From positions 1 to 64,000 of the forward strand of contig DATLGO010000031.1 in assembly GCA_035540375.1 (NCBI GenBank): 64,000 nucleotides of DNA, read 5' to 3'. Source of the stretch: Candidatus Thermoplasmatota archaeon (GTDB lineage: Archaea; Thermoplasmatota; SW-10-69-26; JACQPN01; JAJPHT01). The notes beneath the pieces are model-generated. The model saw only the letters and a program-made list of their open reading frames with translations. It did not search any database and was not told the origin of the DNA. Below are positions 33,306 to 49,940 of this stretch, piece after piece (the stretch's first letter is position 1; each line of letters starts with the position of its first letter). The translations under genes were made by a program, and so were the position numbers.

Positions 33306-36300
33306 ATGATCAGGTCTCGTCCGGTCACGCCAGCCGCCGCGCTGCTTCTTTCGATGGTCCTCGTCGGGTCCCCGGCGGGAGCCGCGGTCGTGGCGCCCAT
33401 CCCGAACGCGTCCGCGCCCGATTTCGAGCGCGTGGGTTGGACCGCTTTCCCTCCGGGCGCTCCCGTCCGAGACCACGAGGCCGCGTTCGGCGCGAAGGAT
33501 CCGACGCACGGTCTCGCCCACGGCGTCAACCCGGCCGCGATCGACATCGCAAGCGGCGTGGCGTCGGTCGGCGCGAACCCGGGCCCGGAGCCCTCGCTCG
33601 CGTGGAGCGACGCCGACGCTTCGCACGTCTTCTTTCGGCTCCGGGTCGGCGGCGATCCCACGAGCCCCGGCAAGGACCCCAAGATGTACAAGGCGTACCA
33701 CTGGAACGTCCTCGTCGACGCCGACGGGGACGGCATGAGCGAGTTCGTGGTGGATCTCTTCGGCGGGAAGCGCGCCGACCCCCCGCACCCCGCGGGAAGC
33801 CTCGTCGTCCACAACAACCACGCCTGCGAAGACGTTCCCACGGGGAACGTGGACGCCGACAACGCGGTCGCCCCGGGCCAGGTCGTCTGGTCCGCGCCGG
33901 CCTCGAAGGCGTCGAACGCTTACACGCGTGCGCGCGCGACGGGCGATGGCCAGTATTGGATCGAGATGGCCGTGCCTTGGACCGCGTTCACCTACGCGCG
34001 CGGCGTCTGCGCGGGGGAGCGCGCCCTCTTCACCGGCTCGAGCCCCGGCCTCTTCGCATCCACGAGCGCCTCCAACACGAATCCGCTCCAGAAGGATTGG
34101 ATGGCCGGCGCGGTTCTAGCCCCCCGGCTCGAGGTTTCGAAATCGGCCGACGTCGCGGAGGCCGCGCCGGGCGGCCTCATCACCTACACGCTCGAGGTCG
34201 CGAACGTCGGCTCGGGATGGGCGCGGACGCCCACGCTCACGGACGCGGTGCCGGCGCACACGTCCTTCGTCTCCGCCTCGAACGGAGGCATCCACGACGC
34301 CGCGACGGGTCTCGTGCGGTGGACGCTCCCGAGCCTCGCGCCCGGCGCGCGGGCCACGGTCGACCTCAGCGTCGTCGTCGCCGATCCTCTGCCGTCCGAC
34401 GTCGGCGCGGTCGAGAACGTCGCCGTCGCGGGCGGCGCGGCGAGCAACGCCGTCACGACCCCGATCGTCCGCGCGCCCGCGCTCGCATTGGCGCTCGTCG
34501 CGGCGCCCCCCGCGCTCGGACCCGGAGGAGTCGGGATCTTCACCTTCAGCTACGCGAACACGGGCTCCGCGCGCGCGATCGACGTCGTCCTCGAGACGGC
34601 CTTCGAGGGGCCCGGCATTCCGCGACCCTCGGACGGCGTTGACATGGAAGGCGGTTTCGCGCGCTGGTCGGTCGGCGACCTCGAGCCGGGCGCCTCGGGC
34701 ATCGCCACGCTCCGCATCGACGTCGATGCGGCGCTCGAGCCCGGCGTCCACACCCTCGTCGCCTCGGGCCGTCTCGTTGCCGCGAACGCTCCCGCGACCG
34801 CGGCCGGTCCCGCGACGATCCTCGCGATGGCGACCGCGGGGCTCGCGGTTACCTCGACCCCGTCGATCGCGGAGGCGCGGCCCGGCGACGCGATCACGTG
34901 GACGATCGCCTGGCGCAACGACGGCAACGCGACCGTCGCCGACGCCCGGCTCGAGCAGGTCCTTCCGCCCGGGTTCGTCGTCGTCTCCGTCGGGGACGGC
35001 GGTCGAATGGAGGAAGGCGTTCTCGTCTGGGTCCTCGGCACCCTCGGACCCGGCGCTTCGGGCGCCACGATGGTCGTCGTCCGGGCGCCCTCGACCGCGC
35101 CGGAAGGACGGACGCTCCACGAGGACGCCGTCACCCTGAGCGCGCGCTCGGCCGCGCCTGCCCGCGCCGTGTCGCAGGTCCTCCTGATCGCCGAGCCGCT
35201 CGCCGAGCTCGGCTTCGAGGCGCTCGCGCCCGCGACGGGCCCCGGCGGCGCGCTCGCGTTCCGCGCGACATGGTCGAACGGGGGCGACGCCGTCCTGCGC
35301 GACGCCGTGCTCTCGGTCCTTTTCGAGGGCCCGGTCTCTCCCGCGTCGCTCCGATTCCCGATCGGGGACGTCGCGCCCGGCGCGAACGGGGCCATCACGT
35401 TCGACGTTCGCGCCGACGAACGTCTGCGCCACGGATCCCATCCCGTCCTCGCGCACGCCGCGCTCGCGTCCGCGAACGCCCCCGCCGCCGCGGCCGGACC
35501 CGCCCGGGCGACCGTGGTGGCGGGCGCCGCGCTCGCGCTCGCCGTCGACGTCTCGCCGGAGCGCGGCGGGCCGGGCGACGCGTTCCGCTGGAATCTCGCA
35601 TGGGCCAACGTCGGGAACGGGACCGCGGCCTCGGCGACGCTTGCCGACCTCGTCCCGCCCGGTTTCGCGCTCGTCGCGATCTCGCCCGGCGGGATCGCCT
35701 CGGGCGATGCGCTCCTCTGGACGCTCAGGGATCTCGCGGCGGGATCGTCCGGCGCGGCGTGGTTCGAGGCCCGGGCGCCCGCGCATGTGCCTGCGGGCGA
35801 GTCGCGCTTCCCGAACGACGCGAAGCTCAGCGCCGAGGGGCTCGACACGGTCGAGGGCTCGGTCGAGGCGATCGTCGCCTCGCGCGGCGTGCTTGCGCTC
35901 GCCGTCTCGGTCTCGCGCCCCGCGATGGGCCCCGGCGACGTGGCCGCGCTCACGATCACGCTGACGAACGTGGGCAACGCGGCCGCTTCCGATGCGCGCG
36001 TCGAGGGGCTCGTCGAGGGCCCCGCGCGCTGGCCCGATGCCTCGCCGGATGCGAGGCTCGCCTGGGACGTCGGGAGGCTCGATGCGGGCGAAACCCGCAC
36101 GCTCGTCGTTGGCGTCGTCGGCGACGCGATCGTTCCGCACGGCATCCACGAGGTCGTCGCTTCGTTCAACGTTCGCGCGCTCGACGCCGACGTCCCCGCG
36201 CCCGCCGGCGTTTCGATCGGCATCCACGCCTCGGCACGGCTGTCCCTCGCGTCGACCGTCGAACCCGGCGAAACGATCGCGGGCGGGGAGGCGCGGTTCC

Positions 36301-38435
36301 GACTTGCGTGGGCCAACCTCGGAAACGGCACCGCGCGTGGCGCCCGGCTGCTCGACGTCGTTCCGGCGCACGCGACGCTCGTGGACGCGGGGTCCGGGGC
36401 TGAGGTCCGCGACGGCCTCGTGACGTGGCGACTCGGCGACCTCCACCCCGGCGCTCGCGGCTTCGTGGACATGGACGTCCGCGTCGCGTGGCCCATGCCG
36501 AACGGGACGACGCGCGTCTCGGACGACGCGCTTCTCGAAGCGGAGGGACCGGAGGCGGCGCGCGACGCCGCGACGCTTCTCGTCCGCGCCGCTCCCGACC
36601 TCGCGGTCGCCAAGACCGTGGACCGGACCGCCGCGAGCCCCGGGGACCGGCTGTTCTACACGATCGGCGTCGAGAATCGCGGGTCGGCGGCCGCTTCGAA
36701 CGTCTTGATCCTCGATGCGCTTCCGGGGCATCTGTCTCTCGTCGAAACGAGCGAATCCTGCGGCCTCGTCGCAGAGACGCGGGAGGTGCGCTGCCTCGTC
36801 GGCACGCTTGCGGCCGGCGCCCGCGCTCCGTTCTGGATCCTCGCCGCCGTCGACGCGACGATGCCCTCCGGCGAGACGCGCCTCGTCAACGTCGCGGAGG
36901 CGCGCTTCCTCGAAGGCGCGCCGGCGCGGTCGAACGAGGTGGAGACCGTCGTCGCGGCGGCGCCCGAGGTCGAAGTCCTCAAGCGCGTGAACCCGGGCTC
37001 GGCGACGGAAGGTGAGCTCCTGCGCTACGTGATCACGGTGGTGAACCACGGAAACGCGGACGCCCGCGACCTCGTGGTCCGGGACCCGCTGCCGCCCGAG
37101 CTCGAGTTCGTCGACGCGGAGCCGGAGGCCGTCGTCGACGGCTCCGTCGTGACGTGGCAGGTGCCGCTCCTCGAAGCCCACGGCGGCTCGATCACGCTGC
37201 TCCTCCTCACACGCGTGCGCGACCTCGACGTGAAGAGCGTCGTCGCGTGCAACGCGGCGAGCGTCGAGGGCGCGAACGTTCCCGCAACGGAAAGCGCGCG
37301 CGCGTGCGTTCGATTGAGCTGCGCGATGCCGGACCCGCTCGCGAGCAGCGCGGCGGCCTCGGTCGCCCTCGTCGGCGGCGCGCCGTCGCACGAGGTCGCG
37401 CAGCGCGGCGAAGGCCGTCAGGAGTCGGGCTCCGCGACGGAGCTCATGACGCTGCCCGGCGTGAGGATCGGCCTCGGCGCGAACGCGGTGACGGGCGCCG
37501 TCGCCGAGGACGGCGCCGCCGTCGCGAACGCGCAAAGCGTGTTCGGGCCCATCGACGTCCTGGGCCGCCTCAAGGCCGACGGCGCGGTGATGAATCTCGT
37601 CGCCGCCACGGACGGCGCGAACGCCACGTGGTCGATCGAAGGTACGCGATTCCTGAACCTCACGCTCGACGGCGTCCCGCTCACGGACGTCGTGCCGGGC
37701 CTCGAGATCGATCTCGCGGGTGCCCGCGCGACGCTTCTCAGGGTCGACGCGCGCACCGAGGCGCCGCGCCAGGGATACGAAGGCTTCGCCGCCTTCCGCT
37801 CGACCGCGACGCTCACCCTCCTCGCCCTCGAACCCGTGCTCGGTGCTCCCGTCTCGGTGGGCGTCGCCCACGCGACGGCGCTCACGGGCGTGGAACCCGA
37901 GTGCTCGGGCCCGTCCCATCCGTGGATGCGGGCCGATGCCGCCCTCGTCGACGTCGGCGGTCTTCACGCGGTCCACGCCGGCGTCAGGGGGCTCGGCGGC
38001 GAGGACGAGCGTCGCGGCGACATGTTCGCGTCGCCGCTCGTCGAGGCGCGCGGCTGGCGCGCCCTCGCGCGCGGCGCGACGAACACGACGTGGGCGCGCG
38101 CCGAGACCGGCCTCGAAGCGGCTTACGTCGACATCCTCGACGGCCTGGTGGTCGCGCGCGGCCTCGAGGGCCGGATCGTGGTCGAGAACGGACCCTCGAA
38201 GCTCGAGGGCCACATGGCGATCGCGGAGCTCATCGTGGAAGGCCAGGCCTACGCGGGCGGCGCGATGCCTCAATCGGAGATCCCCCTCGGAGGAGGCGGT
38301 CGCGTGCTCCTGAACGAGCGCATCGCGCTCCACGACGGAGGCCTGCGGGTGAACCTCATCCGCGTCGAGGGCCCCGACGGGGTCACCCTCGCGCTCGTGG
38401 GCGCGCTCCAGGCGGAAGCGCACCTGACGACGTGA
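33306..38435 (+). CDS. Giant surface protein with nine DUF11-like repeats
   Basis: 1709 residues, extracellular. Signal peptide (cleavage near AGA, about residue 26); an N-terminal domain to about residue 275 with LVDADGDGMSEFVVDL and EMAVPWTAF resembling carbohydrate-binding modules; then nine beta-sandwich repeats of about 120 residues with the DUF11 pattern (GD..TWTI..RN.GN.T......LPPGF). Repeats 2-7 alternate between two forms, one with FEGP and one with PPGF, making a 235-residue superrepeat three times. The last 350 residues are a different domain with no repeats. No obvious C-terminal anchor is seen. Probably a cell-surface or adhesive stalk protein. GGAGG ten bases before the ATG looks like a ribosome-binding site, rare in this window. 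Confidence 0.92.
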   Translation: MIRSRPVTPAAALLLSMVLVGSPAGAAVVAPIPNASAPDFERVGWTAFPPGAPVRDHEAAFGAKDPTHGLAHGVNPAAIDIASGVASVGANPGPEPSLAWSDADASHVFFRLRVGGDPTSPGKDPKMYKAYHWNVLVDADGDGMSEFVVDLFGGKRADPPHPAGSLVVHNNHACEDVPTGNVDADNAVAPGQVVWSAPASKASNAYTRARATGDGQYWIEMAVPWTAFTYARGVCAGERALFTGSSPGLFASTSASNTNPLQKDWMAGAVLAPRLEVSKSADVAEAAPGGLITYTLEVANVGSGWARTPTLTDAVPAHTSFVSASNGGIHDAATGLVRWTLPSLAPGARATVDLSVVVADPLPSDVGAVENVAVAGGAASNAVTTPIVRAPALALALVAAPPALGPGGVGIFTFSYANTGSARAIDVVLETAFEGPGIPRPSDGVDMEGGFARWSVGDLEPGASGIATLRIDVDAALEPGVHTLVASGRLVAANAPATAAGPATILAMATAGLAVTSTPSIAEARPGDAITWTIAWRNDGNATVADARLEQVLPPGFVVVSVGDGGRMEEGVLVWVLGTLGPGASGATMVVVRAPSTAPEGRTLHEDAVTLSARSAAPARAVSQVLLIAEPLAELGFEALAPATGPGGALAFRATWSNGGDAVLRDAVLSVLFEGPVSPASLRFPIGDVAPGANGAITFDVRADERLRHGSHPVLAHAALASANAPAAAAGPARATVVAGAALALAVDVSPERGGPGDAFRWNLAWANVGNGTAASATLADLVPPGFALVAISPGGIASGDALLWTLRDLAAGSSGAAWFEARAPAHVPAGESRFPNDAKLSAEGLDTVEGSVEAIVASRGVLALAVSVSRPAMGPGDVAALTITLTNVGNAAASDARVEGLVEGPARWPDASPDARLAWDVGRLDAGETRTLVVGVVGDAIVPHGIHEVVASFNVRALDADVPAPAGVSIGIHASARLSLASTVEPGETIAGGEARFRLAWANLGNGTARGARLLDVVPAHATLVDAGSGAEVRDGLVTWRLGDLHPGARGFVDMDVRVAWPMPNGTTRVSDDALLEAEGPEAARDAATLLVRAAPDLAVAKTVDRTAASPGDRLFYTIGVENRGSAAASNVLILDALPGHLSLVETSESCGLVAETREVRCLVGTLAAGARAPFWILAAVDATMPSGETRLVNVAEARFLEGAPARSNEVETVVAAAPEVEVLKRVNPGSATEGELLRYVITVVNHGNADARDLVVRDPLPPELEFVDAEPEAVVDGSVVTWQVPLLEAHGGSITLLLLTRVRDLDVKSVVACNAASVEGANVPATESARACVRLSCAMPDPLASSAAASVALVGGAPSHEVAQRGEGRQESGSATELMTLPGVRIGLGANAVTGAVAEDGAAVANAQSVFGPIDVLGRLKADGAVMNLVAATDGANATWSIEGTRFLNLTLDGVPLTDVVPGLEIDLAGARATLLRVDARTEAPRQGYEGFAAFRSTATLTLLALEPVLGAPVSVGVAHATALTGVEPECSGPSHPWMRADAALVDVGGLHAVHAGVRGLGGEDERRGDMFASPLVEARGWRALARGATNTTWARAETGLEAAYVDILDGLVVARGLEGRIVVENGPSKLEGHMAIAELIVEGQAYAGGAMPQSEIPLGGGGRVLLNERIALHDGGLRVNLIRVEGPDGVTLALVGALQAEAHLTT

Positions 38436-40211: not shown

Positions 40212-41951
40212 TCAGATCAGCTCCCGCACGCGCCCTTGGATGGAGTCGATCGGCCGCGGCGTCGTGGTCGGTTTCGGCGTCGGAACGTCCGGACCCTGGG
40301 GCGGCGTGACGGGGATCCTGACCGTGAACACGGTTCCGCGGCCAGGACCGGGACTCGCGACGGCGATGGTCCCGCCGTGGGATTCGACGATGCCCTTGCA
40401 GATGTAGAGGCCGAGACCTGAACCGGTCTTGCGGTCCTTCATCGCCCCGACCTGGGAGAATGGGCGGAACAGCAATGAGGCGTCTTCAAGCGTCAAACCC
40501 GTGCCGTCGTCCTCGACCATAAGGAGAACGTCGTTGGCCCGCCTCTCGGTCCGCACCTGCACATGCCCTCCTCGCGGCGTGAATTTGATCGCGTTGCCGA
40601 TGAGATTGAAAAGGACCTGCATGAGCCGCTTTGGATCGGCTTCGAGCGAGCACGCTCCGTGGATCCGAGCCTCGAGGTGAAGGCCCGAGACGTGCGCCGC
40701 CTCCGCGTAGCTCTCGACGGCCTCGAGGACGAGGCGGTTGAGGTCGATGGATTTGCGGTCGAGCCCAAGACTTGCGGCCTGGATACGGGCGACGTCCAAT
40801 ACGTCCTGTGTGAGGATGCGAAGGCGCTCGACGTTCCGGTCGAGGACCTGGATGGACTTGATCTGCTCCGGCGACAGCCGGGTCATGTCGGCTCGCTTGA
40901 GGATGTGGATCTGCATCCGGATGGGCGTGAGGGGGGTTCCGAGCTCGTGCGCCGCCATGTTGATGAACTTCGTCCTGAAGGCGTCCATTTCGCGCAGCCG
41001 CTCGACCTCGGCCTGGCGTTCGACCGCGCGATGTCTTTCGACCTCGGCCAGCTTGCGCTCGCGGAGGTCCCTGAGAACATGGATGACGAGCGCGTCGGAC
41101 CCCAGGGACACCGCGCTCGAGGTCACCTCCATCGGAATCGCCTGCCCCGCCGCGTCGCGCGCGACGACCTCTGCAGTCTTCCGACCCCGTTTCGGGGTGA
41201 GCGCCGTGAGGTTCGTGGTATCCGCCGCGAGCAGGGACGAGATCGGGGCCCCGAGGAGCCGGTCTCGCGTTTGACCAAAGAGACCTTCCGCCTGGGCGTT
41301 CACGAGCGTGATGGCGCCCCCGTCGTCGGTGATCACGATCGGGTCGGGCGCGGCTTCGAGGAGGCTGCGGAACTTCTCCTCGGCGCGCTGCACGAGCCTC
41401 ATCTCCTCCCGCATCTCGCCCTTCGCGCGGGCTTCGTCGAAATACTGTTGCGCGATGAAAGCGCTCACGGCGGCGACAAATCCGAAATAGGATACCCGAA
41501 GGAGCGCCTCGACGAGATTGCGTTCAAGCTGTCCCATGCCGACGAGAAGGCCGAGATAGCTCACCCCGTACGCCGCGGCGCCGACGACGGTGGCCACGGG
41601 GCTGAAACGGAGCGCGACGGAGGCGATCGCGACGAAAAACAGGTGCTGAAAGGGCGAGTGGAAACCCCCCGTCGCGTAGATCCATACCATGATGAAGCCG
41701 AAATCGAAAAGGGTCGTCGCCCATGCGGCGACGATCGGCCGGAGACGTTGAAAGGGGTCGCGGAAGAGCGTGACGATGCCGTAGATGAGCGCCGCGACGA
41801 TGATGACCTCGGCGAGCCACGGCGTCGCTTCGCGAGCGGGACCTGAGACTCCGTAAACGATGGTATTGACCACGATGATCGGGAACCGGACCCACGAAAG
41901 CCATCGCTCGGCTTCGCTCAACCGGACCGCCGCGGGATTCGCCGTCGCCAT
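40212..41951 (-). CDS. Membrane sensor histidine kinase with PAS domain
   Basis: 579 residues. About six N-terminal membrane helices (20-170), a coiled linker, a PAS domain (about 190-300; APDPIVITDDGGAITLVN), then HisKA with the phosphoacceptor His335 in NMAAHELGTPLTPI and a HATPase domain with N box LFNLIGNAIKFTP, G1 VEDDGTGL and G2 KTGSGLGLYICKGI. The disordered Pro/Thr-rich tail is short. It begins 2 bp after the platform protein gene, within the filament operon whose first gene is a response regulator, so the two are the obvious phosphorelay pair. The ATG at 41951 is chosen; a longer frame would overlap the upstream gene. Confidence 0.93.
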   Translation of the reverse strand: MATANPAAVRLSEAERWLSWVRFPIIVVNTIVYGVSGPAREATPWLAEVIIVAALIYGIVTLFRDPFQRLRPIVAAWATTLFDFGFIMVWIYATGGFHSPFQHLFFVAIASVALRFSPVATVVGAAAYGVSYLGLLVGMGQLERNLVEALLRVSYFGFVAAVSAFIAQQYFDEARAKGEMREEMRLVQRAEEKFRSLLEAAPDPIVITDDGGAITLVNAQAEGLFGQTRDRLLGAPISSLLAADTTNLTALTPKRGRKTAEVVARDAAGQAIPMEVTSSAVSLGSDALVIHVLRDLRERKLAEVERHRAVERQAEVERLREMDAFRTKFINMAAHELGTPLTPIRMQIHILKRADMTRLSPEQIKSIQVLDRNVERLRILTQDVLDVARIQAASLGLDRKSIDLNRLVLEAVESYAEAAHVSGLHLEARIHGACSLEADPKRLMQVLFNLIGNAIKFTPRGGHVQVRTERRANDVLLMVEDDGTGLTLEDASLLFRPFSQVGAMKDRKTGSGLGLYICKGIVESHGGTIAVASPGPGRGTVFTVRIPVTPPQGPDVPTPKPTTTPRPIDSIQGRVRELI

Positions 41952-41953
41952 CC

Positions 41954-42841
41954 TTAGAGCACCCCTGCGAACACGGCGAACGCGAGGGCGACCATGACCC
42001 ACGCGTGTCCGAGCCCGCCTCGCCAGGAGCCGGAGCCGAGGACGCCCGCGACCAGACCGCCTCCGAGACCCTGGGCGAGCGCGGCCGCGTAGTAAAACGT
42101 CTCGAAGTCGTCGAGATCCACGCTGCGGAACGAGAGGCCCGCGGCCGATGCCGAAGCCGCCTGCGAGGTCGCGAGGACCAGCTCAGGCACGAGGGTCGCG
42201 TAGAGCAGCGCGACAACGCCCAGGAACACGACGAACGAGATGTGGATGATCGCGACGTACATCGAAATCATCGATCGCCGCTCGACTCTCATCTGCCGGC
42301 TGGCGCGTGCGTCGCGCGCGGCGATCATGAGGACTTCGCTCACGTTGCCGCCCGCAGCGCTGGCCTCGGCCACAAGCCGGGCCGCGCGTCGAACCGCGGG
42401 CGTCCGGGTCTCGATGCTGAAGCGTTCGAAGGCCTCGGCGAACTCGATGTTCCAGTCGAGGCGCTCGGCAAGTCGCCTGATATGGTGCCCGAGCGCGCCA
42501 TGGTCGCTGCGGGCCGCGACCTCCACCGCCGCGGGCAAGGTCAATCCTGCCCTCCTCGAGGCGGCGAGGTCGCGAAGAAAGTCCGGAAAGCGGTCGTCGA
42601 TCTCCTCGACCTCGCGTCGGCGCGCGTTCTCGAGAAGCGCGAAGGGGCCGAGCCCGACGAGGAGGCCGGCCGCGAGGAGATCGAGCGCTCTGCCCGGGAT
42701 GTATCCAAGCGCCGCCGGCATGGCGGCGGCCGCAAGAAGGATGCCCGCCGCAAGAGCCCCCCACGTTACGACCCGCGCGAGGTCGACGTCGCGAGCGGGT
42801 TTCGCGATCTTGAGGCCCGCAGGGAGGACCGACCCGTTCAT
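41954..42841 (-). CDS. TadC-like type II/IV secretion platform protein 2
   Basis: 295 residues. One T2SSF-type domain: two N-terminal membrane helices, a cytoplasmic helical bundle (EEIDDRFPDFLRDLAASRRAGLTLPAAVE, about 77-107, is the classic start of the domain) and further helices at the C-terminus. The sequence SAAGGNVSEVLMIAARDARASRQM completes the bundle. With the adjacent 42838 gene it would form the membrane platform for filament assembly, as TadB and TadC do. The ATG overlaps the stop of the upstream gene by four bases (ATGA). Confidence 0.9.
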   Translation of the reverse strand: MNGSVLPAGLKIAKPARDVDLARVVTWGALAAGILLAAAAMPAALGYIPGRALDLLAAGLLVGLGPFALLENARRREVEEIDDRFPDFLRDLAASRRAGLTLPAAVEVAARSDHGALGHHIRRLAERLDWNIEFAEAFERFSIETRTPAVRRAARLVAEASAAGGNVSEVLMIAARDARASRQMRVERRSMISMYVAIIHISFVVFLGVVALLYATLVPELVLATSQAASASAAGLSFRSVDLDDFETFYYAAALAQGLGGGLVAGVLGSGSWRGGLGHAWVMVALAFAVFAGVL

Positions 42842-43710
42842 GCGTCCTCCGGCGTCACCGCGTGGATCGTGAACGCGAAGGCGGCCTGCATGAGCGGGAC
42901 GACCACGAGCACGAGGAGGTAGCCGTCGGTGAGCGACGCCGAGGCGGCGGAACCGAACGACACCATGACCGAGAGCATGATGATGAGGAAGAGCGGGGCC
43001 GCCACGACGACCGTCACGTAGGATTCGGCGATGAGCCCGAGGTGATCGAGGAAGCTGCGCTGTTCGAGTCGGGTCTCCGCGGCGATTTGTTCGCTTTTCG
43101 AGATCAGGTATTCGCGAAGGCTTCCGCCCGCGCCGAGGGTGGAAACAGCGCCCTGGAGGAAGTCCGCGAAGCGGGGCGAAGGGGATTGGTCGATCGCCCG
43201 CGAAAGCGCCGAGACGAGGTCGAGGCCGAGCACGCGCATGTCGCGCGCGATCCGAGCGCACTCATCGGCGACGGGGCCGAACGCTTTCTCGCGCCCGACC
43301 TCGGCAAAGATCCTCTCGGGCACGACGCCCGCGCCCGCGAGCGCCGCAACGTAGGCGAGCGCCGCGGGGAGCGCCGCGTCGGCGCTCCTGCTCCGCGCCT
43401 CGGCGAGGATCCGGGGCACGCGGTGGACTGCGGCGACGCCGAGCAGGGTTACGAGGATGCCGAGTCCGAGCCCGAGCATCCCGGCGGCCTCGGGCGCGCT
43501 CCCGACCGCGGTCGCCGTCGCGGTCGCAAGGATCGCCATGAAAACGCCCGTTGCGGTCGACGCGCCGTACCCGACGACGAGAAAAAGGTCGGCGCGCAGG
43601 GGAAGATGGGCCCGTGCCACGTCGCGTTCGAGCCTCGCGAGGGACGGGTGCCGCCGGGCGAGCCTTCCGAAGGCCCGATACGCCAGGCGCGCGACGGGGC
43701 CCACCTTCAC
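42838..43710 (-). CDS. TadB/TadC-like secretion platform protein 1
   Basis: 290 residues. A T2SSF-type platform protein with helices near 40-95 and two at the C-terminus, and a cytoplasmic bundle between (LPAALAYVAALAGAGVVPERIF, then LGAGGSLREYLISKSEQIAAE). The central GAGGSLREYL matches the second half of the T2SSF domain. Having two single-domain platform genes next to the ATPase is the Tad arrangement rather than that of classical type IV pili or archaella. The GTG start overlaps the ATPase stop by four bases. Confidence 0.9.
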   Translation of the reverse strand: MKVGPVARLAYRAFGRLARRHPSLARLERDVARAHLPLRADLFLVVGYGASTATGVFMAILATATATAVGSAPEAAGMLGLGLGILVTLLGVAAVHRVPRILAEARSRSADAALPAALAYVAALAGAGVVPERIFAEVGREKAFGPVADECARIARDMRVLGLDLVSALSRAIDQSPSPRFADFLQGAVSTLGAGGSLREYLISKSEQIAAETRLEQRSFLDHLGLIAESYVTVVVAAPLFLIIMLSVMVSFGSAASASLTDGYLLVLVVVPLMQAAFAFTIHAVTPEDA

Positions 43711-45347
43711 GAATAATCCTCCGCGTCCTTGCGCGCCGCTTCCGCGACGCCTTCCGGATCCGTGGCGTAGGCCGCGAAGATGCGCGTCACGTGGTCGAAT
43801 CGTCGAATGCCGCGGCGGGCCATCCAGGCGAGGATCTCGGACCGCCGACGCGCCTCGGCTTCCACCGCCTCGCGGTCCAGGTTGCGGCTCTCGCCGATCT
43901 CCTCGAGGATGCGGCTCTTGCCGAGGAAGCGCATTTGGCCCGAGGCCCGGTCCCGCCTGAAGGCCGTGTTCGTGAGGATTTCGCCCGTGCGGTTGTCGAG
44001 GCCCGCGATCTCCGTGAGCTCGACGACTCGTCGAACGAGCTTTCCGTCAACCCGCAAGGAGGCCTGGATGAGGATCCCGTCAACCTGCTGGATCAGCACG
44101 CGAGGGATGTTGATCGGTTCGTTCTCGAGGCGACGGACCACTGCCTCGGCGCTGTCGGCGTGCATCGTGCTGTAGACAGCGTGACCGGTGCTCATCGCCT
44201 GGAAAAGCGTGAAGGTCTCCGCGCCGCGGACCTCTCCCACGAGGATGTATTCGGGTCGCTGCCGGAGCGCGGCCTCGAGGAGGCGGTACATGTCGACGGC
44301 TCCGGCCAGCTTGGAGCCGGAAAGCTCGCCCGCAAAGCCGGTCCTCGTCACCGACGCGATCCAATTTTCGTGCGCAAGATTGATCTCGCGCGTTTCCTCG
44401 ATGGACACGATCTTCTTCTGGAGGGGGATGAAGGTGCAGAGCGCGTTGAGGGTCGTGGTCTTCCCGCTCGCGGTGCCGCCCGCGACGAGGAGGTTGCGCC
44501 CGCTCTCCATCGCAAGCCAGAGCGTGGCCGCGAGATCTGGATCGAGCGTCCCATACGCGATGAGGTCCGGAGGCGTGAGGGGGTCGCTCCGGAACTTGCG
44601 GATCGTGAAGGACGAGCCGCGCGTGGTCACCTCGCGCGAGAGCGTGGCCTGCAGCCTGCTCGAGTCCGGCAGCGTCGCATCGAGGATCGGATCCGCGATG
44701 CTGATCTGCTTGCCCGCCCGCTGGCCGAGCCTCATCACATAGCGGTCGAGTTCGATCTCGTCGTCGAACACGACGGTTGTTCGCATCGATTCGAATCGAC
44801 GATGAAAGACGTAAAGGGGGATTCCGGGGCCGTCGCAAGAGATGTCCTCGATGAGCGGGTCGCGCATGACGACGTCCATCGGGCCGTAGCCGAGGAGATC
44901 GCGCGCAAGCGCGTATCGGACGCGTTCGCGGCCGACGGGATCGAGGAGGACGGAATGATCCACGATCGCCTGATCCGCCGCCGCAAGAAGTCTCGCCTCG
45001 CGGTCGGACGAATCAGCCGCTTCGACCGGCAAGGTCTTGACGAGCGTCTCGCGCAGGAAAGCGCAAGCCTCGCGCTCGGGACCCGCGAGGACGGGCTCCA
45101 CGACTTCGTAAAGGTTCGTTCCCGATGCGCCGTCGCGGAGGATGCGCGGAAAGGCGAGACCGCCGGTTCCGGGATCGAGGATCTCGAAGGGCGCCGCGAC
45201 CTCGCGAACCGGGGTCACGGGTCGGTCCGGCGCGAGGCCCAGCGCCGCATAGGCCGCGCGGCCGCGGAGCAGCTGGCGGTCAAGGGGCGTCGGCGCGGTC
45301 GCGCCGTTGCGAAGGCCCCGGAGGGCATCAAGCCACGATCGCGACAT
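43707..45347 (-). CDS. TadA/FlaI-type secretion ATPase
   Basis: 546 residues. Hexameric AAA-like ATPase that powers filament assembly. The N-terminal 150 residues are a helical domain; then LGYGPMDVVMRDPLIEDISCDGPG, a TadA/CpaF-like N-domain motif; Walker A GGTASGKT (290-297); the Asp/Glu box SIEETREI; Walker B YILVGEVRG (367-375); and the His box MHADSA (His 396). No zinc-binding tetracysteine of PilB type is seen. It probably interacts with the two platform proteins encoded just downstream with 4-bp overlaps. The 5' end overlaps the large pilin-like gene by 20 bp. Confidence 0.94.
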   Translation of the reverse strand: MSRSWLDALRGLRNGATAPTPLDRQLLRGRAAYAALGLAPDRPVTPVREVAAPFEILDPGTGGLAFPRILRDGASGTNLYEVVEPVLAGPEREACAFLRETLVKTLPVEAADSSDREARLLAAADQAIVDHSVLLDPVGRERVRYALARDLLGYGPMDVVMRDPLIEDISCDGPGIPLYVFHRRFESMRTTVVFDDEIELDRYVMRLGQRAGKQISIADPILDATLPDSSRLQATLSREVTTRGSSFTIRKFRSDPLTPPDLIAYGTLDPDLAATLWLAMESGRNLLVAGGTASGKTTTLNALCTFIPLQKKIVSIEETREINLAHENWIASVTRTGFAGELSGSKLAGAVDMYRLLEAALRQRPEYILVGEVRGAETFTLFQAMSTGHAVYSTMHADSAEAVVRRLENEPINIPRVLIQQVDGILIQASLRVDGKLVRRVVELTEIAGLDNRTGEILTNTAFRRDRASGQMRFLGKSRILEEIGESRNLDREAVEAEARRRSEILAWMARRGIRRFDHVTRIFAAYATDPEGVAEAARKDAEDYS

Positions 45348-46674
45348 CGAGGCTCACCTCCTTGATCGCAACGTGGACATCTTCCGATGCCGAGGACGGC
45401 GAGGTCCCGAGAATCCGGACCTGGATGGAAGCGCTTCCCGTCGTAACCATGTAATCCTTCGGCGAAACGAGACCCGCCCGACCGAAGGCGTCGTGGACGA
45501 TCCCCGCCCAAGCCGCGGGCGCCCGCGTCTCGATGACGAGGGTGGCCTCCGGCGCGCGCCCCTCAACCCGCAAGATCTTCGTCGGCGTAAGCGTGGCGAC
45601 GGCGGCGCCCGTCGAAGTCGCTTGGAGGGTTGCTCCCTGGAGACGGGCGCCGTCGAGAGAAACCACGGTGACGTCGTTGATGCGCGCGACCCCAAAGTCC
45701 GGAGGGACCCGGAAGACGAAGGCTCCGCCTTGATCAAGGAGGAGGGCGCCGTGCTCGACGACGAGCTTCTGGTCGGGATACCGGTTGTTTGCCGCCGCGA
45801 TGGAGAGCGCGCCGCCCGCGGACCTCCACGCGTAAGGCTCCCGGACGGTGCCGCCGCCCGTGGTGACGAGCGTTCCGTCGGGGGCCGCCTCTCGCGAACG
45901 CATTGCGTATTCGGCCGTGATGAACGACGAGAGCGGCTGCGCGTTGAACGTTTCGATAGAAAGCGAGACCGGCTTCTCGGCATCGGCGATCACGCGGTCG
46001 AATCGCCAGGTCGGCGTGAGGACGTCGACCCAGAACGGAGGCGCGATGGGGGAGGTCATGGAGTGGATTCCCTGGAAGAAGATCGTCGTTCCCGACTCGG
46101 TCCTCACGGCGGCGGTCAGCTCGGAGGCCTGCGAGCCGCCCGGGGCCGAAACCCGGAAGCGGAAATCGCCCGCGAAGGCGCCCGTCCGGTTCCGGAGCGT
46201 GAGGTCGACGGCGTCGAGGTGATTGGCCTGGGAAAGCGTCGACGTGATCTTGAGCCTCAAGTCGTCGACGGCGGCGAGGTTGGTGATGTTGATCCGACTG
46301 GTGAGGGGCGACCACGATTCGCTCGCGCCCGCGGCGCTTGCCCCGTCGGACCAGATGCGCATCCGCGGCGACGACACCGTGAGCGCGGGTCCCGTGGCTT
46401 CGAAGGAGACGGTGGGGGGTAGCCCCGAGGTCCCGAGGAACTCGTCCCCGCGCCCGACAGGGATCAGGAAGGCCTGCGCGCCCTGGGCGGGATCCGTCGT
46501 GCGCGCGCTCGCGGCAAGCTTCGCAAGGCGCTCCTCGAGCGTGGCGATCCTCTCGATCTCGCGATCCCGCTCCAGGGCTGGAAGCACGGTCACGCGAGCG
46601 GCGGCGAACGCGGCGGCCACGATCGCGAGGACGAGAATCGCGCCGATGACGTTGGAAACACCCTTGTCGCCCAT
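45328..46674 (-). CDS. Large pilin-like protein with class III signal peptide
   Basis: 448 residues. The N-terminus MGDKGVSNVIGAILVLAIV is an archaeal class III (prepilin) signal: a short charged leader, Gly before the cleavage site, then a hydrophobic stretch that forms the filament core or membrane anchor. The remainder is a large beta-rich extracellular domain with few Cys, much larger than an ordinary pilin (100-200 residues), so it may be a tip adhesin or minor subunit. No prepilin peptidase gene lies in the window. The ATG is 3 bp from the stop of the small pilin gene upstream. Confidence 0.85.
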   Translation of the reverse strand: MGDKGVSNVIGAILVLAIVAAAFAAARVTVLPALERDREIERIATLEERLAKLAASARTTDPAQGAQAFLIPVGRGDEFLGTSGLPPTVSFEATGPALTVSSPRMRIWSDGASAAGASESWSPLTSRINITNLAAVDDLRLKITSTLSQANHLDAVDLTLRNRTGAFAGDFRFRVSAPGGSQASELTAAVRTESGTTIFFQGIHSMTSPIAPPFWVDVLTPTWRFDRVIADAEKPVSLSIETFNAQPLSSFITAEYAMRSREAAPDGTLVTTGGGTVREPYAWRSAGGALSIAAANNRYPDQKLVVEHGALLLDQGGAFVFRVPPDFGVARINDVTVVSLDGARLQGATLQATSTGAAVATLTPTKILRVEGRAPEATLVIETRAPAAWAGIVHDAFGRAGLVSPKDYMVTTGSASIQVRILGTSPSSASEDVHVAIKEVSLDVAIVA

Positions 46675-46677
46675 GCT

Positions 46678-47121
46678 TTAGCCCACCGTGTAGATCGCAT
46701 TCGCGAGGAGGCGGGACGTGCCGTCCTCCGACGTCGCGGATACCTGTATCGAAACCCGGGCACCCGGCGCGAGCCGCAGCGTCCGGGTCCACGTTTCGCC
46801 CGCCGTGAGGCTTCCGTCGGAAAAGGCGGAGCCGAGAGCGCTTCCCGTGAGTCGCGTCGTCAGACCGTCGACGGCGTAGACCACGACGACCCGCGATGCG
46901 GGGAGGCGTTCTCCTCCGCCGTGCGTTATCCTCAGTTGGTCGTCGGCGGTGTTCCAGACCGCGTCGGGGCCGCGCGCGATGCCGGTGGAGACGTCGGCGT
47001 GAGGCGGAGTCTCGACGACGAGCCTCGCATGGAGGAAAGCCCCGAAGACTGCGGCCGCGGCCACCGTGATCGCGACGAGCAGGAGCGTCCCCACCGTCTC
47101 GACGGCCCCCCCGTCCGTCAT
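46678..47121 (-). CDS. Small pilin-like protein with class III signal peptide
   Basis: 147 residues. MTDGGAVETVGTLLLVAITV is a short prepilin-type leader cleaved after Gly, followed by a hydrophobic helix, as in archaeal type IV pilins. The mature part of about 140 residues contains DAVWNTADDQLRITHGGGE, a turn-rich segment common in archaeal pilin families (DUF1628-like), and a beta domain. It is the best candidate for the major subunit of the filament. The ATG overlaps the KaiC-like gene's stop by four bases. Confidence 0.85.
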   Translation of the reverse strand: MTDGGAVETVGTLLLVAITVAAAAVFGAFLHARLVVETPPHADVSTGIARGPDAVWNTADDQLRITHGGGERLPASRVVVVYAVDGLTTRLTGSALGSAFSDGSLTAGETWTRTLRLAPGARVSIQVSATSEDGTSRLLANAIYTVG

Positions 47122-47846
47122 CGGATGCGTCCTCCGGAGAACGAGCCCGTGATTTCGACGTTCGCTTCGTCGAAGCGGTACTCCGTCCAACCGATCTCGG
47201 GCGGCGCGCCCAGCCCCTCGACCCGCAGGAGGTGGCGGTCGCCGTCGCGCTTCACTTCGATGATGCCATGACAGAGGTGCTTGAAGGCCTGCACGTCGGC
47301 GTCCGCGTGCATCCCGTGGTCGACAAGGAGCATTCCCGTCGCCCCGGCGCGTCGCGCCATCCCGATGAAGACCTGGAGGAAGCGGAACGTGGCCTGGGGA
47401 CTCGTCTGGATCGCAAGGGTCGACACCGAGTCGAGGACGAGCGCGTGCCGCGATGCGTTCTTCGTGATCTCGCGATGAACTTTGCCGAGCGCAACGCCCA
47501 GGTCGTTGAGGCTTGCGAGCCCGTCGACGAGTTCGGTCCCGAGCCGGGGGTCCTCCTCGAATCCGATCACCCGGCTGTAGGCGTCGATCGTGTGAAGAAG
47601 CCCCGACGCGATTGGCACCGCGAGATTTCCCGCGGAGCGGGCGAGATCCTTGTGGAACTCGGAGGCCGTTGCGTTCGTGACGATCCCGAGGGCGGCGTCT
47701 CCGCGCGCGATGCTTTGTGCGAGGAAACGGCGCGCAAGCACCTCCTTCCCCGCGAAGGGCGGCCCGTACACCAGCGCGAAGGATCCTTCGGGGAGGCCCC
47801 CTCCGAGCAGATCGTCGAGTCGCCGGACGCCCGTCAGGATCTTCAC
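47118..47846 (-). CDS. KaiC/RAD55-like ATPase
   Basis: 242 residues, a single RecA-fold domain. The start TGVRRLDDLLGGGLPEGS is the classic KaiC opening. Walker A is GPPFAGKE (28-35): Lys34 is kept but Glu replaces the usual Thr or Ser next to it. Walker B is ALVLDSVS (Asp139). In archaella the related FlaH pairs with the FlaI ATPase; here the gene sits five places upstream of the TadA ATPase in one transcript, suggesting a similar regulatory role. The GTG start overlaps the fusion gene's stop by four bases. Confidence 0.88.
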   Translation of the reverse strand: MKILTGVRRLDDLLGGGLPEGSFALVYGPPFAGKEVLARRFLAQSIARGDAALGIVTNATASEFHKDLARSAGNLAVPIASGLLHTIDAYSRVIGFEEDPRLGTELVDGLASLNDLGVALGKVHREITKNASRHALVLDSVSTLAIQTSPQATFRFLQVFIGMARRAGATGMLLVDHGMHADADVQAFKHLCHGIIEVKRDGDRHLLRVEGLGAPPEIGWTEYRFDEANVEITGSFSGGRIR

Positions 47847-49018
47847 GTGACCACCCCCCGGACGTTCCGGAAGAGCCGGCGCAAGAGCGCGCGGCAGGCG
47901 ATTGGGTCGCTCACGTCGATGGGGACCACGGGGACGTCGTCGCCGAGGGCGAGCTCCCGGGCGATCTCCTCGGGCGAAAGGGCGTTCGAGGGATCCTGCC
48001 GGTTCGCGGCCACCACGATGGGAAGATGCTGGGTCCCCGATTCCTCGAGCATGGCGCGGGCGCGCTTCAACGAATAGTGGCGGCTGCTCTCGACGACGAG
48101 TACGACCCCCATCGCCTGGCCCGCGAGCATGCCGAGGAGCGGATCGAACCGCGCTTGACCGGGCGTGCCGAACACCTCGGTGGTGAAACCGTCCATCGTG
48201 ACCGTCCCATGATCGAGGGCCACGGTCGTATCGAGCCGATTGACGCTGATCGAGGTGTCGCTCACCGCGTTCACGAACGTGCTCTTGCCGGCGTGGAAGG
48301 GACCCGTCACCAGAATCTTGGGGATGTATTCCAGGACTCCTTCCGGCTCGCGGACGACGAAAGCGACGGCTTCGTCCGAGCCGTTTGCGCGCCAGCCCGC
48401 GCGCTCGACCCGGAAGGCGTGCCCCGTCGTCGCGCGGCGACCCTGGAGGCCGCTCACCTGGACGACGCCGTCGAAGGCCGAGGTGAACGGCGCGGTCCCT
48501 CCTTCGTAGGGCCACGCGGTCACAACGGTCGCGGACACGGGGAATCGCCTGAACGCGGCGACGATGCGGGGCAGGTCGCGCGCGGCCCGCTCGGGATCCG
48601 CCGCGCGATCCACGAGCGTGGACAGGGAATCGACGGCAAGGAACGCGTTCGGATAGAGGGTCGATAGGCGTTCGATCTCCATCGCGAGCGACGCAGGGTC
48701 GTACGGATCGGGTATCACATGACGGGCTCCGAAATCGAGGCCGAGTCCCGACGAGTAGCCGTCCACGATGACGAGCTTCGGGGCTCTGGCGTCGAGGCCG
48801 AAGGCGCGCAGACGCATCGCGACCGCGTTCGGCGGGCGGTCAAGGCCGACGAAAACCACGGGTCCTCCGCGGGCGACGTGCTCGCGCGCGGCCTGGTAGA
48901 GGAACGGCGTCGCGTCGACGCCCGGATCATTGACGAAGACCACCGACGAGCCCTTGGGAACCGGCGCCATCCGCCGGTCGACGGCGGGGACGCCGATGAG
49001 CGTGGAGGCGGAGGACAC
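47843..49018 (-). CDS. KaiC-like domain fused to a small GTPase
   Basis: 391 residues in two parts. Residues 5-225 look like a KaiC/RAD55 domain in which the P-loop is lost (VNDPGVDATPF has no Lys) while the Walker B-like FLAVDSLSTL is kept. Residues 232-391 form a complete Ras-like GTPase of the COG2229/MglA type: G1 GPFHAGKST (239-247), G3 FGTPGQARF (283-291) and G4 ANRQD (338-342). The GTPase would switch filament activity with the adjacent Roadblock protein as partner. The GTG start is 3 bp from the Roadblock stop. I know of no standard name for this fusion. Confidence 0.9.
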   Translation of the reverse strand: MSSASTLIGVPAVDRRMAPVPKGSSVVFVNDPGVDATPFLYQAAREHVARGGPVVFVGLDRPPNAVAMRLRAFGLDARAPKLVIVDGYSSGLGLDFGARHVIPDPYDPASLAMEIERLSTLYPNAFLAVDSLSTLVDRAADPERAARDLPRIVAAFRRFPVSATVVTAWPYEGGTAPFTSAFDGVVQVSGLQGRRATTGHAFRVERAGWRANGSDEAVAFVVREPEGVLEYIPKILVTGPFHAGKSTFVNAVSDTSISVNRLDTTVALDHGTVTMDGFTTEVFGTPGQARFDPLLGMLAGQAMGVVLVVESSRHYSLKRARAMLEESGTQHLPIVVAANRQDPSNALSPEEIARELALGDDVPVVPIDVSDPIACRALLRRLFRNVRGVVT

Positions 49019-49021
49019 ACT

Positions 49022-49420
49022 TCAGCCTCCGTTTTCCTTCGAGTGCTCGATCGCCTTCCGCACGTGCGCAAAGGTCTGTTTGAGGTCCGCGTTCGGCTCA
49101 GCCACGGCGACGAGCATGAGATCGGTGGCGGCCGCGACGGCGATCAGGCTCACCCCCTCGGCCTCCAGTCGGAGGATCACGGGGGAGCGGCCCCCGAGCT
49201 CGCCCACCATCGTTTCGCCGGCAGCCATGACGGCGGCCGCGAGCGCGCTCATGGTCCCGGGTCGGGAGATCTTCGGACATTCGTTGATGACGCAAAGACC
49301 GTCGCGCGTGACGAGGAGCGCGCCCTGGATGCCGGGCGCGTCGGAGAGGGTGGCGAGGGCCTGTTTCCATGGATCGCGAATCACGCCGAGAGGCGTCCTT
49401 CTGGGTGAACCGATGGTCAT
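49022..49420 (-). CDS. Roadblock/LC7-domain protein
   Basis: 132 residues. A Roadblock fold of the MglB type: LSDAPGIQGALLVTRDG (about 25-41), the central helix MSALAAAVMAAGETMVGELG, and LIAVAAATDLMLVAVAEPNADL. MglB homologs are GTPase-activating partners of MglA-like GTPases; the next gene encodes such a GTPase, so this pairing is very likely. The gene begins 1 bp after the response regulator stop. The ATG at 49420 is used; the frame is open upstream but within the response regulator gene. Confidence 0.9.
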   Translation of the reverse strand: MTIGSPRRTPLGVIRDPWKQALATLSDAPGIQGALLVTRDGLCVINECPKISRPGTMSALAAAVMAAGETMVGELGGRSPVILRLEAEGVSLIAVAAATDLMLVAVAEPNADLKQTFAHVRKAIEHSKENGG

Positions 49421-49421
49421 G

Positions 49422-49940
49422 TCAGGTCCTCCGCCCGAGCTCGTGACGCATGGCGTCGAGGCTCCTGGCGAATGCCCGCGCCCGAAGCTCGTCGGCGCGG
49501 CGCGCCCGGAGGATCGAGAAGACGTTCTCGACAACGACGTCAGGATCGAACGGTTTGACGAGGAAGTTGTGCACGCCTTCGAGGTTGATGGCCTTGAGCG
49601 CGATGTCGAGGTCGGGATAGGCCGTGATGAGCATCCGGGCGCTCCCGGGGGCGATCTTCTGGGCGGCGGCGAGGAACTCGAGTCCTGTCATCCCCGGCAT
49701 CCGGTAGTCCGTGATGATGAGATCGACGGCCTCCTTTTCGAGGAGCGTGAGCGCGTCGGGACCCGACGTTGCCACCACCACGTCGATCTCGAGCTCGGCC
49801 TCGAGCAGATCGCGGAGCGAATCGCCGATGTCCACCTCGTCGTCGACGACCAGGACCCGCTGACGGCGGATGGGGTCGGACGCGTCGTCCGTCACGGCGA
49901 TCCTCTCCATCGGGAAAGGGGGGCGCCCGAAACCAGCCAT
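49422..49940 (-). CDS. Response regulator, single receiver domain
   Basis: 172 residues. One REC domain: acidic pair in VLVVDDEVD (Asp33-34), phosphoacceptor Asp78 in ITDYRMPGMTG, Thr106 in LITAY and Lys129 in LVKPFD. There is no DNA-binding output domain; a short helical tail follows (ARSLDAMRHELGRRT), so it probably works by protein contact, perhaps on the GTPase or ATPase. First gene of the operon; the kinase is encoded at 40212-41951. The ATG at 49940 is used; an internal ATG at 49910 just before the REC domain is an equally plausible start. Confidence 0.9.
   Translation of the reverse strand: MAGFGRPPFPMERIAVTDDASDPIRRQRVLVVDDEVDIGDSLRDLLEAELEIDVVVATSGPDALTLLEKEAVDLIITDYRMPGMTGLEFLAAAQKIAPGSARMLITAYPDLDIALKAINLEGVHNFLVKPFDPDVVVENVFSILRARRADELRARAFARSLDAMRHELGRRT

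Follow-up and report, generated by a model that had tools for sequence, protein, structure and literature searches.

A pseudo-KaiC::GTPase fusion in a conserved archaeal three-gene module, and its recurrent linkage to type IV pilus genes

The gene described here encodes a KaiC-like domain without its Walker A lysine, fused to a complete MglA-type GTPase. The real unit is a module of three genes, coding for a Roadblock protein, for this pseudo-KaiC::GTPase fusion and for a second KaiC-like protein, and linkage of this module to genes for type IV pili (T4P) recurs in other lineages. It was studied in a window comprising the whole of a 64,000-nucleotide stretch (positions 1 to 64,000 of contig DATLGO010000031.1, assembly GCA_035540375.1) from a Candidatus Thermoplasmatota archaeon. 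The best reading of the arrangement, to which a probability of roughly one half may be given, is that it represents a GTPase switch resembling MglA/MglB, with two pseudo-KaiC scaffolds coupling it to T4P; the domain folds, the lost and retained motifs, the gene linkage and the conservation on which this reading draws were all observed or computed.

The fusion, its relatives and its module

The reading frame at 47843–49018 on the minus strand, which a first-pass annotation made from the sequence alone had proposed to encode such a fusion, is genuinely open, running uninterrupted over 391 codons from a GTG start. Its N-terminal half (residues ~1–231) matches KaiC models (Pfam ATPase/KaiC, E 1e-5; TIGR03877, E 2.5e-5) and its C-terminal half (residues ~232–391) matches Arf/Ras models (Arf, E 5.4e-10), while a profile search against solved structures using 46 family members placed the KaiC-like entries 2zts/2dr3 at residues 3–231 and Arf-like GTPases at residues 234–390. 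An AlphaFold2 model is confident over the full chain (mean pLDDT 91.4, pTM 0.88), and its N-terminal half (model residues 4–231) aligns with 2dr3_F, the KaiC-like ATPase PH0284, with Z 25.8 and an rmsd of 2.2 Å over 220 residues; this is the RecA/KaiC fold that had been anticipated, a fold outside the RecA class not being seen. The matches listed from the structure search are those of the KaiC half, and for the GTPase half the fold is assigned from sequence profiles and from the secondary structure of the model.

Within the N-terminal half no GxxxxGK[ST] motif is present, the P-loop being reduced to the vestigial NDPGVDATPF, and the loss of the Walker A Lys, already remarked upon in the window protein, extends throughout the family: 96 full-length copies were compared, and not one of the 95 that are readable at this position has Lys there. 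The Walker B-like strand that had also been described fares less uniformly, since it is indeed present in the window (LAVDSLS) but its Asp is kept in just 26/96 relatives. A GGIPxGKS string that occurs in many relatives was considered as a second P-loop and rejected, because in the alignment it is located upstream of the P-loop position. The GTPase half is as complete as had been claimed, with GPFHAGKST in G1, GTPGQ in G3 and NRQD in G4; among the 96 copies G1 is intact without exception, G3 reads GTPGQ in 86 and G4 reads NKQD in 82, and the G2 region, with the sequence DTTV in the window protein and GTT in the majority of relatives, presents Thr rather than Arg.

The fusion is not a one-off, having about 200 relatives in Euryarchaeota and in some DPANN-like archaea. 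A scan of genome contigs with the single sequence found no relatives, while an alignment-based scan covering one genome per species found 201 related stretches (80 of which were retrieved), and a search among 60 relatives added 18 further full-length copies. Carriers include Methanoperedens, ANME-2, Methanosarcinaceae, Archaeoglobaceae, Alkanophagales, Hydrothermarchaeota, Altiarchaeales, Thermoplasmatota and DPANN-like genomes, and the fusion is present in 20 of 100 genomes sampled from the phylum to which a Methanosarcinaceae relative belongs. The domain order holds in the 96 full-length copies compared, and in a tree of KaiC-like domains all the fusion N-terminal halves form one clade with support 100, so that one fusion event explains all copies. 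Stand-alone GTPases of 160–169 aa, ~41–43% identical to the GTPase half, were also encountered (locus L049, 8656–9165, in genome G031; locus L050, 70–552, in genome G023), and to judge from this similarity they are possibly an unfused relative of that half.

Immediately beside the fusion gene in the window, at 49022–49420 on the minus strand, lies a gene for a Roadblock/LC7 protein of 132 aa with an RDG motif (Robl_LC7, E 5.9e-10). This domain is related to MglB, its profile matching MglB 6h5b (E 1.2e-7) as well as CvnB 3leq (E 1.6e-11), and the Roadblock proteins of the module carry an Asp-Gly pair. In 87/96 loci the Roadblock gene adjoins the fusion on the same strand, at a distance of 50 nt or less in 77 of them. 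On the other side, at 47118–47846 on the minus strand and overlapping the fusion gene by 4 nt, is the gene for the second KaiC-like protein (242 aa), here called the partner. As had been suspected, this neighbour is conserved, a KaiC-like gene lying next to the fusion in nearly all loci, on its upstream side among the relatives from methanogens and Archaeoglobus and on its downstream side in Thermoplasmatota; four genomes that have no adjacent partner encode an orthologue elsewhere, which scores 122–190 bits as against at most 67 for the next KaiC in the same genome. A role in anti-phage defence was considered and rejected: the fusion and the Roadblock protein matched none of the PADLOC defence models, and the partner gave just a weak, partial match to mad8 (E 0.003).

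The window operon and the linkage to type IV pilus genes

In the window the module forms part of a longer series of minus-strand genes. First comes a response regulator receiver protein (49422–49940, 172 aa, start codon approximate), followed by the Roadblock protein, the fusion and the partner, and then by an archaeal type IV pilin-like protein with a Pilin_N domain (46678–47121, overlapping the partner gene by 4 nt), a further pilin-like protein (45328–46674; DUF7289 / weak Pilin_N), a T4P assembly ATPase of PilB/FlaI type (43707–45347; T2SSE, the best NCBIfam match being FlaI, below its cut-off), two T4P platform proteins of T2SSF/TadC type (42838–43710 and 41954–42841) and, directly after the second of these, a PAS histidine kinase with a weak PilS-like membrane domain (40212–41951). 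From receiver through to kinase, neighbouring genes either overlap by 4 nt or are separated by gaps of a few bases, and they are therefore read as one operon, the end of which is placed at the histidine kinase on the basis of spacing and strand. The kinase and the receiver protein frame this operon, and the context as a whole (T4P machinery, receiver, PilS-like kinase) was missing from the first-pass annotation. The window also encodes, at 33306–38432 on the plus strand, a probable large surface protein of 1709 aa in which DUF11/CARDB-like domains are repeated.

ArlH (FlaH) is the KaiC-family partner of the archaellum ATPase, and a shared archaellum context was considered for the window. It was rejected: this genome has an archaellum-type ArlH, together with a T2SSE gene, on another contig (C66), and the T4P system of the window is therefore a separate one.

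Of 19 genomes in the window's phylum that have the full fusion, 5 carry the gene for a T4P ATPase no more than 4 kb away from it, the number expected once genome size, copy number and contig ends are taken into account being 0.26 (P 4e-6); with genomes collapsed to families the same test gives 3 against 0.26 (P 1.4e-3), a figure that reflects few independent lineages. Gene order differs from case to case, the module preceding the T4P genes in the window and following them in families f5 and f29. In two archaea that are more distantly related, the fusion (L124/L166) or a separated partner KaiC (L165) comes immediately after a T4P operon. One DPANN-like genome has the order pilins, ATPase, two platform proteins, fusion, small membrane protein and Roadblock, with the partner 9 kb further on, and in a relative of that genome 26 nt separate the second platform gene from the split-off partner. 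Further along the cluster of the DPANN-like genome at L166 (6433–11335) come repeated Roadblock genes and genes for membrane proteins with HAMP domains, possibly a sensory array.

Linkage of this kind has clear limits. In the flanks (up to 8 kb) of most Methanoperedens, ANME-2, Methanosarcinaceae and Archaeoglobaceae loci no T4P genes were found, and a pilus target is therefore not general; in these loci the module adjoins YhbY/S19e/PDCD5-like genes or a V4R protein. The first three of these neighbours, seen in Methanoperedens and ANME-2 (e.g. L094, 9524–10682, and L084, 9876–10322), are small conserved reading frames, 84, 149 and 115 aa long, whose sequences by eye look YhbY-like, S19e-like and PDCD5-like, respectively. 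It is conceivable, if on balance somewhat doubtful, that the module is really a general signalling hub relaying varied inputs to varied targets, with T4P linkage a secondary development in some lineages. The T4P-free loci would fit such a role, as would the way in which neighbours vary by lineage to include V4R, DUF2226 and HAMP proteins with extra Roadblock genes, and a role as archaeal signal hubs has been proposed earlier for KaiC-family proteins, in work known here as it is cited in PMC5847659. Against this, the T4P linkage recurs in separated lineages and with different gene orders, and where fusion and partner have been split apart the T4P genes touch either the one or the other.

A degraded KaiC-like partner

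The partner has a clean KaiC fold (pLDDT 93.6; match to 2dr3 with Z 28.3 and rmsd 2.9 over 229 residues), and the first-pass annotation had supposed it to be an active ATPase, to which the degenerate half of the fusion would bind so as to tether the GTPase to it. The tethering survives as a reasonable guess if it is recast as a heteromer of two KaiC-like domains; the activity does not fare well. In the window the partner's P-loop reads GPPFAGKE rather than GxxxxGK[ST], with Glu in place of the Ser/Thr that in a Walker A motif binds magnesium, and the catalytic Glu region that ArlH keeps is gone. Across 91 neighbouring KaiC-like proteins Glu or Asp occupies this same place in 70, and Asn replaces the Walker B Asp in 48; Ser/Thr is found in 14, six of which are extra canonical KaiCs belonging to one clade. 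In the four separated partner orthologues (L146–L149) even the Lys has gone from its place, which reads GPPLAGEKN or APPVVETHL. An active ATPase next door is thus an improbable reading, despite the near-universal adjacency of a KaiC-like gene, the retention of the Walker A Lys (or Arg) in 88/91 neighbours and the existence of Archaeoglobaceae partners that keep GKS, and which, to go by that motif, may still bind ATP. A further point in its favour comes from the six loci of the single clade just mentioned (L035, L036, L037, L038, L041 and L111), where a KaiC-like protein whose P-loop is canonical (GTGKTT) is additionally encoded just upstream of the fusion; these loci also have a degraded KaiC-like protein downstream of it. 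Judged by its motifs, then, the partner is degraded as well as the fused domain, which leaves the GTPase as the single canonical NTPase site of the module beside two degraded KaiC domains.

Identification of the partner as ArlH itself was also considered and rejected: against the curated ArlH model the window protein scores 30.7 bits, under the cut-off of 215, and in the KaiC-domain tree the partners form a clade apart from ArlH. Partner-like KaiC domains occur, in addition, within long proteins (ORFs of ~540–870 aa, e.g. G032:C58:101664-102365 and G010:C23:3791-4483), which are present in genomes with and without the fusion and are possibly input or sensor proteins. Because these longer multidomain proteins give matches in fusion-free genomes, a search with the partner profile alone shows no specificity of co-occurrence.

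That the two KaiC-like domains might instead build a composite or altered nucleotide-sensing site (for ADP, say, or some other nucleotide), and so serve for sensing, not just as a scaffold, seems unlikely: the strongly conserved N-half residues P32, D86, S133, D137, W169 and Y171 do exceed what a free scaffold should need, and some of them sit in strands that bear the KaiC active site, but no known set of phosphate-binding residues is left in the N-terminal half, and the conserved residues may form an interface instead.

A candidate GTPase switch and its relation to known systems

The preferred reading, an MglA/MglB-like switch with two pseudo-KaiC scaffolds, can be set out as follows. Within a conserved signalling module of archaea the fusion would act as the switch, its C-terminal MglA-type GTPase presumably cycling between GTP and GDP, while the Roadblock protein of the adjacent gene would be its MglB-like regulator, probably acting as a GTPase-activating protein (GAP). 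The N-terminal KaiC domain, with ATP binding apparently lost, would serve as a docking scaffold; in the simplest form it would join the degraded partner through an interface of RecA/KaiC type, and the resulting heteromer would deliver the state of the GTPase to a target. Here, and in several other lineages, that target would most likely be the T4P assembly machine (PilB/FlaI-like ATPase and TadC platforms), by analogy both with MglA-GTP and SgmX in Myxococcus and with ArlH. The PilS-like kinase and the receiver protein at the ends of the operon may supply the input. The most economical way of putting this is that the fused and the partner pseudo-KaiC together may constitute the adaptor of an MglA/MglB-like switch. 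One might go further and see a distinct class of switch, in which an MglA-type GTPase sits in a ring or dimer of two dead KaiC domains and ATP-driven KaiC signalling has given way to GTP-driven control of T4P under a PilS-like kinase, but this stronger version is offered only tentatively. A point against the preferred reading is that the receiver protein is linked to the module just in the window's closest relatives.

The closest known counterparts are the MglA proteins of Groups 2–5, which are marked by GTPGQ, with an Asp-Gly pair in their MglB (PMC4316618). The fusion shares with them GTPGQ in G3, Thr in G2 and a Roadblock gene beside that of the GTPase, as well as the Asp-Gly pair in the Roadblock protein and a link to T4P: in Myxococcus MglA-GTP activates T4P through the adaptor SgmX (PMC7668184), MglB being the GAP and the receiver-domain protein RomR taking part (PMC7668184, PMC9481161, PMC6785124). 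It differs from them in that the GTPase is not a single-domain protein of <240 aa but is fused to an N-terminal pseudo-KaiC in a chain of 391 aa, in that a second degraded KaiC belongs to the unit, and in that the nearest solved GTPases by profile are Arf/Arl. For the archaeal Group 4 MglA no conserved neighbours were reported, in a classification that was built on proteins of <240 aa (PMC4316618).

Archaeal signalling proteins with inactivated KaiC domains (iKaiC) are likewise on record (Makarova et al. 2017, as cited in PMC5847659), and the fusion is itself of this kind, in that its KaiC-family domain lacks an ATP site and is attached to a signalling domain; as far as that citation describes them, what sets the present case apart is that the signalling domain is a GTPase and that the whole is kept as one clade with fixed partners. 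With ArlH the partner has in common a KaiC fold and a position beside a FlaI-like ATPase gene, but it lies outside the ArlH clade and has lost Walker residues that are all kept in the 12/12 ArlH sequences compared. Roadblock (arCOG02603) and KaiC-family genes are also frequent in archaeal T4P loci (PMC4858521), as they are here, and the portions of that survey dealing with KaiC, GTPases and Roadblock make no mention of a KaiC::GTPase fusion. The module was not found described in the literature searched, although an earlier mention is possible, for instance in the article on KaiC hubs in archaea by Makarova et al. 2017, which lay outside the search. What was already known, then, are iKaiC domains, KaiC and Roadblock genes in T4P loci, and MglA/MglB pairs; what appears to be new is their combination, kept as a module across Euryarchaeota.

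To our knowledge it is largely unclear how archaea control when and where T4P assemble, and the partners of many archaeal KaiC-like proteins are for the most part not known. The module names three or four proteins that are kept together over large evolutionary distances, and it suggests that the nucleotide driving the system is GTP and not ATP. As a direct counterpart, in archaea, of the control that MglA/MglB exert over bacterial pili, it would also provide a testable candidate for the on/off switching of archaeal surface pili.
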